Shown: positions 11,189 to 21,151 of the stretch, piece by piece
How the letters are laid out: the number at the start of each line of letters is the position of its first letter
Position numbering within the stretch: the first letter of the stretch is position 1
Assembly (NCBI GenBank): GCA_902782535.1
Contig: CACZNM010000116.1
Span: 1-32,029 of the forward strand
Length of the DNA stretch: 32,029 bases
Direction of reading: 5' to 3'
From: an uncultured Erysipelotrichaceae bacterium
GTDB taxonomy: Bacteria > Bacillota_I > Bacilli_A > RF39 > UBA660
Made by a program: the position numbers and the translations under genes
Notes under the pieces: model-generated
Told to the model about the DNA's origin: nothing
Seen by the model: the letters and a program-made list of their open reading frames with translations, nothing else
Database searches by the model: none

Positions 11189-12268
11189 ATGGAAAAGATT
11201 AAAACGCCAGAGGAATTATTAGACTTTATGTCTAATAATATTGAATATGGATATTTAGGAAGAAGTGGACAAATATATCATTATGATGATAAAGACTTTA
11301 ATAAAAATTGGTATACGGAATATGTTTTAGAAAGTAAAGATGAATTATTAAAAAATCTTTATGGTAATTGCTTTGATCAAGTTGAATTTGAAAGAGATTG
11401 GTTTACAAAAAATGGATATGAAATAAAAACTATCTTTGAAATGGTTAATGTAGATTATGAAAATGAATATCCAACGCATTCTTTTCTTGTATATAATAAT
11501 AAAGAGAATAGATGGTGTTGGTTTGAAAATGCTGATTATGCTAATCGTGGTATTCACATCTTTCGTTCTTTTGATGATTTAATTACTTATCAATATACTA
11601 AGTATGTAAATTTTCTTAAAACTTTTAATATTAGTGATACAGAAATAAATAGAATTATAATGACAGAGTTTTCAAAACCAAAGGAAAATATTAGTGCTAA
11701 AGAGTACCTTAATCATGTTATTAATTCACCACTAATTAATTTTAATAAGAAAAGTGTTTCTGAAAAAAGAGATTTATATGATAAAGACCGAAATAAATTA
11801 GCTGAAACTATTTTTAAAGGTGAAAGAATTCCCGATGATAGATATATTGTTGTTGTTTTAGTCTTTATTGAAAATATGGATGGTCAATTTTTAATTCAAA
11901 AAAGAAGTATGGTAAAAAATGGTTTATATGCTACTACTGGAGGACATCCTAAAAGTGGCGAAAGTAGTCTTGAAGGGCTTATTAGTGAAGTAAAAGAGGA
12001 AATAGGATTAGAACTTGATTCTAATAATCTAGAGTTATATTATCAAGGAAAATCAGATAAAGAACATGTTTTTTGGGATGATTATTATATTAAAATGGAT
12101 ATACATAATATCAATGACTTATCTTTACAAAAGGAAGAAGTTGAAAGTATCGAATGGCTTTCTGAAGATGAAATAAGAAGATTGATGCAGGAAGAAAAAT
12201 TCTTTCAAAGTCATTACGAAGAATTTGAAATATTACTTGAGTGGAAAGCGATGAAGAAGGTGGAATAA
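11189..12268 (+). CDS. Transglutaminase-like / Nudix hydrolase fusion
   Basis: A 359-residue two-domain protein. Residues 1-130 resemble a transglutaminase-like cysteine-peptidase fold: C61 (YGNCFDQVEF), H97 (YPTHSFLVY) and an acidic residue in WFENAD (E113 or D116) would make the triad. Residues about 215-350 are a Nudix domain with the box G252-HPKSG-E258-x7-SEVKEEIG. The usual R of REUXEE is S266, while the metal-binding glutamates E267, E270 and E271 are kept. The Nudix part hydrolyses or otherwise acts on nucleoside-diphosphate-linked or similar substrates; the first domain may cleave an amide. A stand-alone homologue of the first domain lies at 13663. The stop overlaps the next start (TAATG). 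Confidence 0.78.
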   Translation: MEKIKTPEELLDFMSNNIEYGYLGRSGQIYHYDDKDFNKNWYTEYVLESKDELLKNLYGNCFDQVEFERDWFTKNGYEIKTIFEMVNVDYENEYPTHSFLVYNNKENRWCWFENADYANRGIHIFRSFDDLITYQYTKYVNFLKTFNISDTEINRIIMTEFSKPKENISAKEYLNHVINSPLINFNKKSVSEKRDLYDKDRNKLAETIFKGERIPDDRYIVVVLVFIENMDGQFLIQKRSMVKNGLYATTGGHPKSGESSLEGLISEVKEEIGLELDSNNLELYYQGKSDKEHVFWDDYYIKMDIHNINDLSLQKEEVESIEWLSEDEIRRLMQEEKFFQSHYEEFEILLEWKAMKKVE

Positions 12269-12804
12269 TGCAATTATATCTTAGAGAAATAAATAAAAAT
12301 GATCAAGGTGAATTACTCCAAATGGTTAATGAAATAAAAAATGATACAATTGAAGATAAATTTGAAGGTTTTAGAGACATTCAATATTTAAACGAAGAGA
12401 ACTTTAATGATTTTTTAATAGAACGTGAACACAATAAAAATATGAAGTTATATAGACCTGATTTAGTTAACCAAACAACTTTTATATTAGTTGATGATAG
12501 CAATCATATCTATGGTGGAACTAATTTAAGACATGAATTAAATGATAATTTATTGAATTTTGGCGGGCATATTGGTTATTTGATTAGACCTAGCGAAAGA
12601 AGAAAAGGTTATGGAACCTTAATTTTAAGTTTAGTTTTAAAAGAATGTCAAAAAAGAGGAATAACTAAAGTGTTAGTTACATGTCGAGAAGGAAATATTG
12701 GTTCAGCCAAAGTAATTGAAAAAAATCAGGGAATATATGAAAATAGTAAAAAGAAAGTTGAAGATAATAAAATATATCGAAGATATTGGATAGAATTACA
12801 TTAA
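12268..12804 (+). CDS. GNAT family N-acetyltransferase
   Basis: A 178-residue acetyltransferase that would move an acetyl group from acetyl-CoA to an amine. The acetyl-CoA-binding motif A is GYLIRPSERRKGYGTLIL (R/Q-x-x-G-x-G/A type), followed by a helix and the C-terminal pattern NIGSAKVIEKNQGIYENS, normal for GNATs. The C-terminal IYRRYWIEL is the final strand. I place the start at 12268, not at the in-frame GTG at 12241: the ATG forms TAATG with the previous stop and has GAAGGTGG five bases upstream. It is translationally coupled to the transglutaminase/Nudix gene. The substrate is unknown. A terminator follows. Confidence 0.82.
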   Translation: MQLYLREINKNDQGELLQMVNEIKNDTIEDKFEGFRDIQYLNEENFNDFLIEREHNKNMKLYRPDLVNQTTFILVDDSNHIYGGTNLRHELNDNLLNFGGHIGYLIRPSERRKGYGTLILSLVLKECQKRGITKVLVTCREGNIGSAKVIEKNQGIYENSKKKVEDNKIYRRYWIELH

Positions 12805-12810
12805 TTTATG

Positions 12811-12848
12811 AAAAAAGATGGATATTATATAAAAATCCACCTTTTTTT
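12811..12848 (+). terminator. Terminator after the 12268 acetyltransferase gene
   Basis: AAAAAAGATGGAT pairs with ATCCACCTTTTTT with one A/C mismatch, ending in a T-run. A TATAAT lies directly downstream at 12851-12856, a possible -10 for the next gene, but no good -35 fits it. Confidence 0.7.
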
Positions 12849-12898
12849 GATATAATTTAGATAGATGAATTTATTAATTTAATGAAAAGGAGAATGTT

Positions 12899-13570
12899 AT
12901 GAAAAATATTATTTTAACTGGTGCAAGTGATGGTTTAGGAAAAGAGTTTGCCAAACTATGTATAAAGGAAGGTATAAACATAATAGCATTATGTAGAACT
13001 AAGCCTGATTATGAATGTGATTATATAAGAGTTGATTTAACCGATGAATTATCAATGACAAGTGCCTGTCAGGAAATAAAAACTAGATATAACAAAATTG
13101 ATGCGTTAGTTAATTGTGCTGGTGTACCTGGAATTGAAAAATTATATGAAATTACTTATGCATGCCTTGATAATTTAATGAAAATAAATAGTATAGCACC
13201 TATGTTTTTAGTATCACAATTAATTGATTTAATTAAATTAAGTGAAGCAGACATTATAAATATTGGTTCTACAATAGGTTTAAAACAAGGTTATGAAAAT
13301 CAATTAGCATATACAACATCTAAATGGGCATTAAGAGGTACAAGTTATAATTTACAACTTGAATTAAAGAAATATAACTGTCGTGTTATTCAATTAAATG
13401 TTGGAGGGATGAATACGAGAATGCATGAGAAATATACTGGAAATAAAATAGAAAATCCTGATGAATGGATGAATCCCAAAGATATCGCTGAAATTATGTT
13501 ATATACAATTAAATTACCTAAAAAGATTGAAATAAGTGAAATGACGATAAATAGAAAAAATATATGTTAA
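12899..13570 (+). CDS. Short-chain dehydrogenase/reductase
   Basis: A 223-residue NAD(P)-dependent oxidoreductase of the SDR superfamily. The nucleotide-binding turn is TGASDGLG (7-14), the NNAG motif appears as NCAG (72-75), and the active-site residues are N97, S124 (IGST), Y138 and K142 (YTTSK). After the active site come LNVGGMNTRM, where PG is normally seen, and a short C-terminal tail. The length is slightly short for a classical SDR (about 250). The substrate cannot be told. AAGGAGAATG gives the ribosome binding site. It begins a run of genes ending with the transglutaminase-like gene. Confidence 0.85.
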   Translation: MKNIILTGASDGLGKEFAKLCIKEGINIIALCRTKPDYECDYIRVDLTDELSMTSACQEIKTRYNKIDALVNCAGVPGIEKLYEITYACLDNLMKINSIAPMFLVSQLIDLIKLSEADIINIGSTIGLKQGYENQLAYTTSKWALRGTSYNLQLELKKYNCRVIQLNVGGMNTRMHEKYTGNKIENPDEWMNPKDIAEIMLYTIKLPKKIEISEMTINRKNIC

Positions 13571-13634
13571 TTATAAAAAAGTATTAGCAGCCTTAATTGT
13601 TATTTTAGGTATAGTATTAATAAAGATATAAAGA
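13560..13634 (+). pseudogene. Possible remnant of a membrane-anchor segment
   Basis: Between the dehydrogenase stop and the next gene, one frame reads YVNYKKVLAALIVILGIVL and ends IKI-stop at 13632-13634. This is a lysine-anchored hydrophobic stretch typical of a single membrane helix. There is no start codon in frame and a stop lies just upstream (13548-13550). It may be the left-over start or end of a small membrane protein; it could also be chance in AT-rich DNA. Confidence 0.25.
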
Positions 13635-13662
13635 GAAGTTGATTCGATGAAAGAGGTAAATA

Positions 13663-14211
13663 ATGACAATAGAAAATATTAAAACACCACAAGATATTTT
13701 AGAATTTATGAATGAAAAAATTAAATATGGATGGCTTGATATTAATAATGAAGAACATATAGGTAATATGAAAAATTTTAGAAGATTATATCGAACATCC
13801 ACATTAAATGAAATTTTAAAATATGGTATAGGTACTTGTATAGAACAAGTATGGTTAATGAAATATTTATTAGATAAAATTAATATACCAAATAAAATGT
13901 TTTGTACAAGAATATATGAAGGTAAAGATTTTAATAACTTAGAAGCTGAAGAACATATGCATTGTTTTATATTGTATTGTGCTAATAATAAAGTGTTTCA
14001 AATTGAACATCCTAATTGGGAAAGGATTGGTATATATGAATTTAATTCAGAAGAGGAAGCAATCAATACAATCAATGATTATTATGTTAAAATGTCAGGT
14101 GGTAAATCAAGACCAGTAACAGAGTTTTATAACGTTGCACCCAATTTATCATTTAAAGAATTTAATGAATATATAAATAGTTTGGATGAAAAAGAGAAAA
14201 CAAAGAGATAA
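13663..14211 (+). CDS. Transglutaminase-like domain protein
   Basis: A 182-residue stand-alone protein homologous to the N-terminal domain of the fusion at 11189. Both begin with the same signature (KTPQDILEFMNEKIKYGWL here, KTPEELLDFMSNNIEYGYL there). The likely triad is C59 (GIGTCIEQVWL), H100 (EEHMHCFIL) and E115 or H116 (QIEHPNWERIGIYEF). The fold would be a papain-like amidase or transglutaminase; the target is unknown. The C-terminal 50 residues lack the Nudix domain of its relative. AAAGAGG lies upstream of the ATG at a normal distance. It sits between the dehydrogenase and methyltransferase genes in the variable region. Confidence 0.7.
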   Translation: MTIENIKTPQDILEFMNEKIKYGWLDINNEEHIGNMKNFRRLYRTSTLNEILKYGIGTCIEQVWLMKYLLDKINIPNKMFCTRIYEGKDFNNLEAEEHMHCFILYCANNKVFQIEHPNWERIGIYEFNSEEEAINTINDYYVKMSGGKSRPVTEFYNVAPNLSFKEFNEYINSLDEKEKTKR

Positions 14212-15369: not shown

Positions 15370-15669
15370 ATGAATTATGCTATTGAACTAGTATTTGATG
15401 AAGAAAGCCAAAAAGTTATTAATAATTTAAGGGCAAAACTAAGTGAAAATGGTGTACATGATGAAGCGGTTAAATTAAATCATGTATCTATAGGAGATTA
15501 TAAAACAGGTAATATTGATGAATTAAAAAATAGAGTAATAGAATTTTCTAAAACAATTAAACCATTTGGAATAGCATTAGTTTCAGTAGGAACCTTTATG
15601 ACAAAAGAAAATGTTATATTTTTAGAACCTGTTATTACTAGAGAATTAATAGATGTTATCATGATTTAA
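15370..15669 (+). pseudogene. Truncated 2H phosphoesterase (2'-5' RNA ligase-like)
   Basis: This 99-codon ORF matches the first half of the 2H phosphoesterase superfamily (LigT/2'-5' RNA ligase type). A strand MNYAIELVFDEE is followed by the first HxS/T motif in LNHVSIGDY (about residues 37-45), then a helix and VSVGTFMTKENVIFLEP. Full-length members run to about 170 residues and need a second HxT/S motif, which is absent. The reading frame stops at IMI, and a different frame stays open over 15663-15746 (HDLIPQKVIKVNYKDF...), suggesting a frameshift plus deletion. The ribosome binding site AAAGGAGTG is intact, so the fragment may still be translated, but catalysis is unlikely. Confidence 0.6.
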
Positions 15670-15750: not shown

Positions 15751-16782
15751 ATGATTAAGCCAAATAAGTTAAAAAAGGGAGATAAAGTTGCAATTGTAAG
15801 TCTTTCATGGGGAGGACTCGGTGATGAAAAATTAATTCATAAATATTATATAGCTAAAGAAAGATTAGAAAATGATTTTGGATTAGAAGTAATTACGATG
15901 CCTAATGCTTTAAAAGGTAGTAAATATATTTACGAACATCCAGAAGCAAGGGCACAAGATTTGATGGATGCATTTAAAGATGAATCAATAAAAGGTATTT
16001 TTTGTGCAATAGGTGGAAGTGATACTATAAGATTATTACCCTATATAGATTATGAAGTAATAAAAAATAATCCTAAGATATTTATGGGATATTCTGATAC
16101 AACAGTCAATCATTTTATGATGAATAAAGCTGGAATTATTTCTTATTATGGACCATCAATAATGTGTGAATTTGGTGAGTATGTTAAGATGTTTGATTAT
16201 ACAAAAGAGGCAGTAGAAAATATTTTGTTTAATGATAGTGAAAATTATGAAATAAAGTCAAGTGAAATTTGGTCAAATGATTTTGTACCATGGAAAGAAG
16301 AAAATATAAATGTTGCTAAAAAGACATTGAAAGAAGAACATGGATATGAAGTGTTACAAGGCTCTGGTACTGTAACTGGAAAAGTACTAGGTGGATGTAT
16401 TGATGTTTTTCCAATGATGACAGGTACTAGAATATGGCCTACCAAAGAAGAATGGAAAGATAAGATATTATTATTGGAAACAAGTGAGGAAAAGCCAAGT
16501 CCAGATTTAGTTACATATTATCTTAGAAATTTAGGGGCACAAGGAATATTTGAAGTAATAAAAGGTATAATTGTTGGAAAGCCACAAGATGAAAAATACT
16601 ATGATGAATATAAAGATGTATATAAAAAGGTAATGAAAGAATTTAAATGCGAAGATTTACCAATAATGTATAATATTAATATAGGTCATGCATATCCAAT
16701 TGGTATAATACCATTAGGAATAAATATAAAAATTGATTATACAAACAAAAAAATATATCTTCTTGAATCAGCAACTAAATAG
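15751..16782 (+). CDS. S66 family peptidase, MccF / LD-carboxypeptidase-like
   Basis: A 343-residue serine peptidase of family S66. The family contains LD-carboxypeptidase A, which trims muropeptides, and MccF, which cleaves microcin C-type peptide nucleotides and gives immunity. The Ser-Glu-His triad is visible: S115 (FMGYSDTT), E243 (LLLETSEE) and H313 (NIGHAYP). The family start KKGDKVAIVSLSWGG (8-22) and AIGGSDTIRLLPYID (86-100) are clear. The length and the SLS-W-G variant suit MccF-like members, but the two subgroups cannot be separated here. No microcin gene is near. GAGGTAA precedes the ATG. It lies in the variable region between the 2H remnant and an acetyltransferase gene. Confidence 0.85.
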   Translation: MIKPNKLKKGDKVAIVSLSWGGLGDEKLIHKYYIAKERLENDFGLEVITMPNALKGSKYIYEHPEARAQDLMDAFKDESIKGIFCAIGGSDTIRLLPYIDYEVIKNNPKIFMGYSDTTVNHFMMNKAGIISYYGPSIMCEFGEYVKMFDYTKEAVENILFNDSENYEIKSSEIWSNDFVPWKEENINVAKKTLKEEHGYEVLQGSGTVTGKVLGGCIDVFPMMTGTRIWPTKEEWKDKILLLETSEEKPSPDLVTYYLRNLGAQGIFEVIKGIIVGKPQDEKYYDEYKDVYKKVMKEFKCEDLPIMYNINIGHAYPIGIIPLGINIKIDYTNKKIYLLESATK

Positions 16783-19502: not shown

Positions 19503-20285
19503 ATGATTTATAATACATGTAATAATATATCTGAATTAAATGATTTAAAGGATTATTTTAATAGTGAATTAATAAATGATTTATATTTTAAACCTAAAAA
19601 AGTTAATAAAGATTTAATAGATGAAAAATTAAATAATTCCAATTATATAGAAAAATTTAATAATATTATAAATAATTATAAAGATTATGATATAGAAAAA
19701 CTAATAAGTGAAAAGATAAGTAATTTTGAAAAAAATACATCATTTAAATTAGATAGTTATAAGATATATGTAATAATAGGTCTTGATACCACTACAATAT
19801 ATTCAATTAAATATAAGGATGAAGATGTTACAGTACTATTACTTGAATCTACAAATGGTAATATGGATAATTTGGACATGTTACTAGCACATGAATTTAC
19901 TCACTTTGTTAGAAGACAAATATTTAAAAGAGACATATTTGAAAATTCTATAGGAGAAAGATTTATAGTTGAAGGTATAGGATGTAATTATTCAAGAGAG
20001 ATAGTACCTAATAAAGAAGACTATGAATATTGTATTGTTAATAAAGATACTGTAGAATGGGTTAAAAACAATATTGATAAAGTAGAAGAACACATGTATG
20101 GTAAAATGGATACAAATGAATTAATGAGTGATTACTTTTATATGTTTGCCGATACGGAAAAAACAGGATTACCTGCAAGAACAGGTTATGTATATGGATA
20201 TTTAAAAGTAAAAGAATATTTAGAAAATAATAATCTAAGAATAAAAGATATTATTGATAAAGATTGGAAAGATATATTGAATTAA
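19503..20285 (+). CDS. DUF2268-like putative zinc protease
   Basis: A 260-residue protein with a zinc-peptidase motif, HEFTH at 130-134 (LLAHEFTHFVRR), and a downstream glutamate in FIVEGIG (E157) that would be the third zinc ligand, as in gluzincins. The order AHExTH ... EGxx fits the DUF2268 family of predicted Zn-dependent proteases. The N-terminal 110 residues are lysine- and asparagine-rich and helical, then strand-rich (YKIYVIIGLDTTTIYSIKY). There is no signal peptide, so it acts in the cytoplasm if at all. AAGAGGTG precedes the ATG. Very high A/T at silent positions (many AAT and AAA codons) is stronger than in neighbouring core genes. It ends 14 bases before rbgA. Confidence 0.72.
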   Translation: MIYNTCNNISELNDLKDYFNSELINDLYFKPKKVNKDLIDEKLNNSNYIEKFNNIINNYKDYDIEKLISEKISNFEKNTSFKLDSYKIYVIIGLDTTTIYSIKYKDEDVTVLLLESTNGNMDNLDMLLAHEFTHFVRRQIFKRDIFENSIGERFIVEGIGCNYSREIVPNKEDYEYCIVNKDTVEWVKNNIDKVEEHMYGKMDTNELMSDYFYMFADTEKTGLPARTGYVYGYLKVKEYLENNNLRIKDIIDKDWKDILN

Positions 20286-20299
20286 AGGAGTTGATCCAA

Positions 20300-21151
20300 A
20301 TGAATGAAAATCAAACTAATATAAACTGGTACCCAGGCCATATGGCTAAAACTAAAAGGGAAATTAAAGAAAAACTAGATTTAATAGATATTGTTTATGA
20401 AATAGTTGATGCGAGAATTCCTAAATCAAGTCGAATAATAGATTTAGATGATATTATCATAAATAAACCAAGAATTATTATTTTTACTAAATATGATTTA
20501 TGTGATAAAAGTATTACTGATAAGTATATTGATGAATTAAATAAAGAGTATGTTGTCTTAGAAACAAATTTAAAGGAAAATAGTAATATTAATAAGGATA
20601 TAATTGCTAAAACAGAAGAATTATTAAAAAATATTAATAATAAAAGACAAGAAAAAGGTCTTAATAAGAGAAATTATCGAGCTTTAGTAATTGGTGTGCC
20701 TAATGTCGGTAAAAGTACTTTGATTAATCGTTTAGCAGGACGTAATGTTGCTAAAACTGGTAATATTCCTGGTGTTACAAAAACTTTATCGTGGATTAAA
20801 TTAAATAAAAATATTGAATTATTGGATACACCGGGTATTTTGTGGCCAAAGATAAATGATCCAATACAAGCTTTAAATCTAGCAAGTTTATCAAGTATTA
20901 AAGAAGAAATACTAAATAAAGAAGAAATAGCAACATATATTATTGAAACATTATATAAGTATTATCCAGAATTATTAAAAGAAAAATATGGTATTGAAGA
21001 TATATGTGATATCAATAATGTATTTGATAAGATAGGACGAAAAAGAGGATGTTTATTAAAAGGTAATATTATTGATTTGGAAAAAGTTTACACAATTATT
21101 ATGAATGATTTAAAGGAAGGGAAAATAGGAAAAGTTAACTTTGATAGATAG
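20300..21151 (+). CDS. rbgA: Ribosome biogenesis GTPase RbgA
   Basis: A 283-residue circularly permuted GTPase (YlqF/RbgA) needed for late assembly of the 50S subunit. The family start INWYPGHMAKTKREI is clear. The G motifs come in permuted order: G4 TKYD, then G1 GVPNVGKST, G2 in the GVTKTLSW region and G3 DTPG, followed by the C-terminal RNA-binding helices with IGRKRGCLLKGN. I place the start at 20300 (MNENQ), with AAAGGAG at 20284-20290; an in-frame upstream extension to 20264 would overlap the previous gene and lacks conserved sequence. It marks the return from the variable region to core genes. Confidence 0.92.
   Translation: MNENQTNINWYPGHMAKTKREIKEKLDLIDIVYEIVDARIPKSSRIIDLDDIIINKPRIIIFTKYDLCDKSITDKYIDELNKEYVVLETNLKENSNINKDIIAKTEELLKNINNKRQEKGLNKRNYRALVIGVPNVGKSTLINRLAGRNVAKTGNIPGVTKTLSWIKLNKNIELLDTPGILWPKINDPIQALNLASLSSIKEEILNKEEIATYIIETLYKYYPELLKEKYGIEDICDINNVFDKIGRKRGCLLKGNIIDLEKVYTIIMNDLKEGKIGKVNFDR

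Follow-up and report, generated by a model that had tools for sequence, protein, structure and literature searches.

A predicted transglutaminase-fold domain with many fusion partners, Nudix among them, in uncultured Bacilli

Gene organization and the fused protein

The window analysed here is the whole 32 029-nucleotide contig CACZNM010000116.1 of an uncultured Erysipelotrichaceae bacterium (contig 116 of a 1.29 Mb genome in 134 contigs). It encodes two proteins with a transglutaminase-like (TG) domain: a 359-residue protein in a single open reading frame (ORF; 11189–12268), in which the TG domain (TG1) is followed by a Nudix domain, and a protein of 182 residues (TG2; 13663–14211) that consists of a TG domain alone. 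The two are homologous in the TG region, with 27% identity over 185 residues (BLASTP, E = 2e-9). A preliminary description had reported both ORFs, their separation of 1.4 kb (12268 to 13663) and their shared region, all of which we confirm. The sequence motifs that it listed (KTPxxxLxFM, GxCxxQV, xHxF and the Glu of a last motif) are present in both proteins, apart from the Trp of that last motif (WFEN in TG1 versus QIEH in TG2). The TG region itself is longer than the 125 residues first assigned to it and extends to about residue 187, as standalone relatives are roughly 178–201 residues in length. The main features are as follows.

11189..11749, + strand: TG1, residues 1–187 of the fused protein (AlphaFold2 model, CPR-C4 fold match, triad conservation)
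11369–11371, 11477–11479 and 11525–11527, + strand: codons of the predicted TG1 triad Cys61, His97 and Glu113
11750..11758, + strand: fusion joint (residues 188–190; the joint lies within residues 188–192)
11759..12268, + strand: Nudix domain, residues 191–359 plus stop (PF00293, E = 1.9e-13; standalone Nudix proteins up to 70–73% identical)
11942–12010, + strand: Nudix box, with Ser266 (11984–11986) at the Arg position
13663..14211, + strand: TG2, a standalone TG protein of another subfamily than TG1 (AlphaFold2 model, CPR-C4 fold match)
13837–13839, 13960–13962 and 14005–14007, + strand: codons of the predicted TG2 triad Cys59, His100 and Glu115

On a quick tree, TG1 clusters with 11 standalone genes and TG2 falls in a clade of 14 rows (nine standalone genes and five GNAT fusions). 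TG1 and TG2 are thus diverged paralogues of different subfamilies and not products of a recent duplication.

The fused protein is best described as a clean head-to-tail fusion, as judged by the existence of standalone relatives of both halves and by the lack of a start codon at the joint. Relatives of the TG1 half occur as separate genes with identities of up to 66%, as do those of the Nudix half (about 160–175 residues). The standalone Nudix genes begin with MEKRDLYD, whereas the window reads SVSEKRDLYD, with Ser191 (TCT) at the position of the Met. No ATG, GTG or TTG is found in the fused frame between codons 158 and 230, and there is therefore no separate Nudix start. A search of 291 genomes with the whole protein returned, among the matches listed, no other row covering both halves. 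Another genome of the genus (G731) encodes, near ylqF, a relative of TG1 (68.8% across the 124 residues compared) that ends without a Nudix domain. No further TG–Nudix fusion was found in this lineage, and the fusion thus seems to be local to this genome within the genus. Pairwise dN/dS values against relatives are about 0.2–0.4 for each half; both halves look constrained, although this signal probably predates the fusion for the most part.

The Nudix half

The Nudix half matches PF00293 well above the cut-off (51 bits against 21.1). Its box reads G-HPKSG-E-SSLEGLI-S-EVKEEIGL, which departs from the full pattern GX5EX7REUXEEXGU in the replacement of the Arg by Ser, as had been noted before, but retains the G, E, E, EE and G residues. 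Ser or Thr occupies this position in 33 of 45 distinct rows and Arg in nine. The substitution is thus a trait of the Nudix subfamily and does not suggest that the fusion has gained a novel activity. The subfamily, recognizable by the GHPKSGE sequence, comprises standalone proteins from metagenome-assembled genomes (MAGs) of Clostridia and Bacilli that are 58–73% identical to the fused half and carry the same S/T-for-R box; unlike the window protein, they are standalone in the loci at which they were retrieved (L034–L052). Members of the subfamily and its wider relatives are also fused with GNAT, peptide deformylase-like, ATP-grasp-like and nucleotidyltransferase-like parts (labels assigned by eye). 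Separately, Nudix proteins of ∼540 residues with a C-terminal part that looks ATP-grasp-like by eye were seen in several genomes (L070, L071 and L086–L089).

Fold and proposed catalytic triad of the TG domain

AlphaFold2 models of the TG1 domain and of TG2, each built from five sequences, have mean pLDDT scores of 88.3 and 84.8, respectively. Structural re-alignment placed CPR-C4 first for both models (TG1, Z score of 12.7 over 162 residues with a root-mean-square deviation of 3.5; TG2, Z score of 12.0 over 147 residues), followed by the vasohibins (Z of about 10) and then by pseudomurein endoisopeptidases and arylamine N-acetyltransferases (NATs; Z of 8–9). The CPR-C4/vasohibin fold is matched across the whole domain, with 130–162 residues aligned. 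A Foldseek search with TG2 gave ten matches at E ≤ 0.001 (best 1.5e-4), which include CPR-C4, vasohibins and NAT3 (PDB 4dmo). Against Pfam, TG1 has no match to DUF553 (PF04473, 'Transglutaminase-like') and TG2 matches it with E = 8.5e-4 and 19.2 bits, below the curated cut-off of 20.5; in an alignment of 37 TG members, DUF553 was found in 16 at E ≤ 0.01 (best 4.3e-7) and ASCH in ten. We hold the assignment to the transglutaminase fold and family with high confidence.

In the TG1 model, Cys61 is the first residue of a helix (61–74), His97 the first of a strand (97–103) and Glu113 the last of another (109–113). A Cys at a helix start with His and Glu on later strands fits the transglutaminase-like (papain-like, C-H-D/E) superfamily in the model, so that at the level of secondary structure the triad proposed earlier is positioned as expected of this fold. 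For conservation, we collected 113 distinct TG ORFs, a set enriched for long ORFs, and aligned the 111 with near-full domains after dropping two short rows. Cys61 is kept in 105 of the 111, and His97 and Glu113 in 110 each. The Cys is replaced in six relatives (L016, L156, L117, L177, L142 and L143), the His is absent from one (L119) and Asp stands for Glu in one (L091). Homologues without the Cys, which had been named as a possible refutation, thus do occur, as a small minority. The third triad residue of the family is a conserved Glu, as it is in NAT3 (4dmo) by its title.

Comparison with known systems

CPR-C4, from the Candidate Phyla Radiation (PDB 7ob6, 7ob7 and 7pjo), has, according to the available text of its report, been confirmed to be a cysteine protease; its triad is Cys-His-Leu(carbonyl), and it cleaves labelled casein (PMC9108980). 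It resembles TG1 and TG2 in the whole-domain fold, in the order of Cys and His and in its origin from uncultured bacteria. The identity is only 13–17%, however, and the third residue in CPR-C4 is a Leu carbonyl (L115), whereas the TG family conserves Glu113, possibly at the equivalent position; fusions, of which the TG family has many, are not among the features described in the available part of that report (PMC9108980). The vasohibins VASH1 and VASH2 share the transglutaminase-like cysteine protease core, but at 11–16% identity; the same partial source has them require SVBP and act on tubulin, a substrate absent from bacteria (PMC9108980). DUF553 is the Pfam family that TG domains match most often, and the window proteins, one unmatched and one below the cut-off, represent a distinct subfamily with a DQVELER motif.

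A further comparison concerns resistance to microcin C, for which the routes given in the portion of the literature available include MccG (an S51 peptidase), MccF, MccE-type acetylation and the MccH phosphoramidase (PMC9239234). The GNAT (MccE), S66 (MccF) and S51 (MccG) classes overlap with partners or neighbours of TG domains, while MccH belongs to the HIT class. None of the classes covered in that portion has the TG fold (PMC9239234), and the overlap reported here is one of gene context, with no search made for an mcc cluster.

Fusion partners of the TG domain

Sequence of at least 60 residues outside the TG domain is present in 65 of the 113 distinct ORFs, a share biased upward by the choice of long ORFs: it includes Nudix in two and other parts in 63. 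A less biased figure comes from the family search, in which 64 of 150 listed places lie in open frames of at least 255 residues. The outside parts fall into an ASCH sequence cluster (27 ORFs, one of which, L158, has 72 residues outside the TG domain and no Pfam match), a cluster of an unassigned 'YFYH' domain (11) and GNAT (11, by our own labels). HD, HAD, APH, S51, 2H, metallophosphoesterase, YggS-type (Ala_racemase_N), Peptidase_MA-like and Nudix partners occur singly or in pairs, as assigned by Pfam on representatives; the S51 fusion (L140) has E = 8.1e-19. A large ORF and a cupin-like part (a guess, with no Pfam match) complete the set. On the quick tree, GNAT fusion requires five changes, at least three of which are forced by well supported branches, and the ASCH and YFYH fusions, as labelled, have one origin each. 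The second TG–Nudix fusion (L119; Nudix E = 2.4e-15) lies in another family, has lost the His and is independent of the fusion in the window.

A search for further TG–Nudix fusions, suggested in the preliminary description, thus gives no support to the idea that TG and Nudix form a specific unit. Nudix is one of many TG partners, and the fusion with it is no proof of a dedicated pathway; the preliminary interpretation is supported in part. A literature search for a transglutaminase-like domain combined with Nudix and ASCH, or for an ASCH domain with a transglutaminase, found no such paper, which is not proof of absence from print; for transglutaminase-like, Nudix and fusion, only papers that are unrelated by title and abstract were returned.

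Several unusual architectures were seen among the relatives. Multi-domain chains include GNAT-TG-GNAT-ASCH (L137:1672-3585, 637 residues) and GNAT-TG-ASCH (L155:1791-3257, 488 residues). The YFYH part is a domain of ∼180 residues ('LYFYH', no Pfam match) C-terminal to the TG domain, found at L064:2897-3445 and in ten relatives. Two long ORFs of ∼960–980 residues (L142:2104-4980 and L143:731-3673) have a TG-like region with Pro or Glu for the Cys and possibly a C-terminal membrane segment.

Distribution and genomic neighbourhood

Within the GTDB family to which the window belongs, 162 of 386 genomes, from 88 of 150 genera, carry the TG family; in a phylum-wide draw it was found in ten of 392 genomes, three of them outside that family. 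Its distribution is thus patchy and, on these matches, nearly restricted to a single GTDB family of uncultured, low-GC Bacilli. A TG2-type gene is also present in a MAG titled Clostridia (L035). A viral origin was considered and rejected: a TG profile gave 14 pattern matches on viral contigs, none of which was confirmed, and none on phages or plasmids. Six proteins searched against PHROGs had no TG match, and the fold search of BFVD gave two matches at E ≤ 0.001, both named as acetyltransferases and weak by TM-score. Among PADLOC defence families, one of 37 TG members was matched (E = 0.0069).

Other genes of the window that bear on the interpretation are the following.

12268..12804, + strand: GNAT acetyltransferase (PF13302/PF00583)
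15751..16782, + strand: S66 peptidase of the MccF/MccC-family type (PDB 5f1y, 'MccC family protein', E = 6.8e-113)
20264..21151, + strand: GTPase which we take from its sequence to be of the YlqF type; anchor of a variable island and synteny marker (orthologues in 5/5 genomes of the genus)

The likely ATG of the GNAT gene (12268) overlaps the stop of the TG1–Nudix gene (TAATG), which suggests that their translation is coupled. The gene for the S66 peptidase, part of the same island, follows TG2 at a distance of 1.5 kb. The region upstream of ylqF is a hypervariable spot with different gene content in each genome of the genus seen (L162, L181 and L182): ASCH- and TIR-like ORFs in G776, EVE- and TfoX-like ORFs in G216 (both by eye) and the TG1 relative in G731. 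TG2 orthologues (L161, L163, L164, L165 and L167) have differing neighbours, and the relatives inspected do not keep the two TG genes together. An ORF for a DUF2268-type predicted Zn protease (19503–20285, E = 2.1e-17) overlaps the ylqF ORF, as listed, at its start.

Proposed function and alternative explanations

Homology, the fold match of the models, conservation of the triad, diversity of fusions and patchy distribution are the observations from which a function may be proposed. The explanation that we favour, at somewhat better than an even chance as a whole, is that TG1 and TG2 are small thiol hydrolases drawn from a mosaic pool of accessory enzymes and that the pairing with Nudix is not a dedicated one. 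With the triads C61/H97/E113 and C59/H100/E115, the Cys, activated by His and Glu, would attack an amide (or acyl) carbon to form an acyl-enzyme, which water would then free, resulting in amidase or peptidase action; such hydrolase chemistry is likely. The domain would belong to a lineage-specific pool of gut Bacilli with small genomes, where GNAT, Nudix, ASCH, HD, HAD, APH-like, 2H and peptidase parts are often joined to it end to end. In the window, a TG1 gene may have met a downstream Nudix gene and become a two-domain protein by loss of the stop and start between them, with the Nudix half expected still to cut a pyrophosphate-type bond. The two would be joined for co-expression and not because they catalyse successive steps of a fixed pathway, and we infer that there is no obligate two-step TG–Nudix pathway. 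The likeliest role, an intracellular one, would be detoxification or house-cleaning of small molecules, which we put forward tentatively.

Several points weigh against this explanation. The relatives without the Cys or the His may not be enzymes. With TG1, Foldseek gave no match at E ≤ 0.001 (best 7.9e-3), though structural re-alignment was strong, and a TG sequence profile found no relative among solved structures (best E = 0.88). The fusion in the window is known from one MAG contig, although an error of assembly is unlikely. Same-strand immediate neighbours of TG genes include Nudix in two of 161 cases and GNAT in four (by home-made profiles with no background rate), weak support for any functional neighbourhood. 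Finally, the recurrent GNAT and ASCH fusions could reflect real functional coupling and not chance.

Among the alternatives, the TG domain may be a protein-directed enzyme (a processing protease, carboxypeptidase or deamidase) like the vasohibins and CPR-C4, with the fused domains serving only to target or regulate it. The nearest folds are indeed proteases, and CPR-C4 acts on casein in the available text (PMC9108980), but the partners are small-molecule enzymes and not targeting domains, and we consider this explanation unlikely.

The preliminary description had proposed that a TG amidase and then the Nudix hydrolase act on one amide-linked nucleotide compound, such as a peptidyl-nucleotide or a modified cofactor, to which an aminoacyl-nucleotide may be added. 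The conserved Cys-His-Glu set in its expected positions agrees with the thiol amidase part of that proposal; it is the stepwise TG–Nudix unit that the counts do not bear out. In its favour are the fusion itself, the independent fusion L119, a TG2-type gene (L035) located 58 bp upstream of a Nudix gene whose product shares 70% identity with the fused Nudix half, and a Nudix gene 13 bp from a TG gene (L171). The commonest partner is ASCH, and one ASCH protein acts as an N4-acetylcytidine hydrolase according to the accessible part of PMC6972931; the MccF-like S66 gene downstream of TG2 and the fusions with S51 (MccG-type class) and GNAT (MccE-type class) point the same way. However, Nudix is rare both as a partner (two of the 113 ORFs) and as a close neighbour (the two of 161 above), many partners have no link to nucleotides, L119 lacks the His, and a TG gene adjoins only one of the 19 loci retrieved via the Nudix half. 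A sequential pathway is therefore rather improbable.

An acyltransferase resembling the NATs, in which the Cys moves an acyl group, is very doubtful: NATs do appear in the next tier of fold matches and NAT3 is Cys-His-Glu by title, but a Z score of about 8 is near the level given by common arrangements, and the TG domain of about 190 residues is shorter than the NAT chains listed (roughly 250–295 residues). Least probable of all, and highly speculative, is that the TG domain constitutes an additional class of enzyme. As a thiol amidase of the transglutaminase fold, it would serve gut Bacilli in inactivating amide-nucleoside toxins, whether aminoacyl- or peptidyl-nucleotides (microcin C-like) or others. 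It would have spread by fusion with GNAT and S51, classes for which such inactivation is already known, and beside MccF-like S66, with Nudix then destroying the released nucleotide. This possibility is rated so low because it does not account for the HD, HAD, APH, 2H and YggS partners and because GNAT and S51 genes are common.

A clade-restricted family of cysteine enzymes that keeps its triad while swapping partners would offer a natural guide to substrate, and the ASCH, GNAT, Nudix, S51, HD and 2H partners point to small-molecule or nucleotide-linked chemistry. The family also ties bacterial genomes to the vasohibin/CPR-C4 fold, and its fusions, up to GNAT-TG-GNAT-ASCH, illustrate how gut bacteria with small genomes may build multi-enzyme proteins. 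Caution is appropriate in reading such genes: a single fusion hints at a pathway, while a hundred relatives hint at a mix-and-match module.

Other open reading frames in the window

A 99-residue ORF at 15370–15669 matches only the first part of a 2H-type family of 170 residues (PRK13679, weak) and looks truncated. Two small ORFs at 803–1438 resemble, by eye, proteins of the WXG100/ESAT-6 type.

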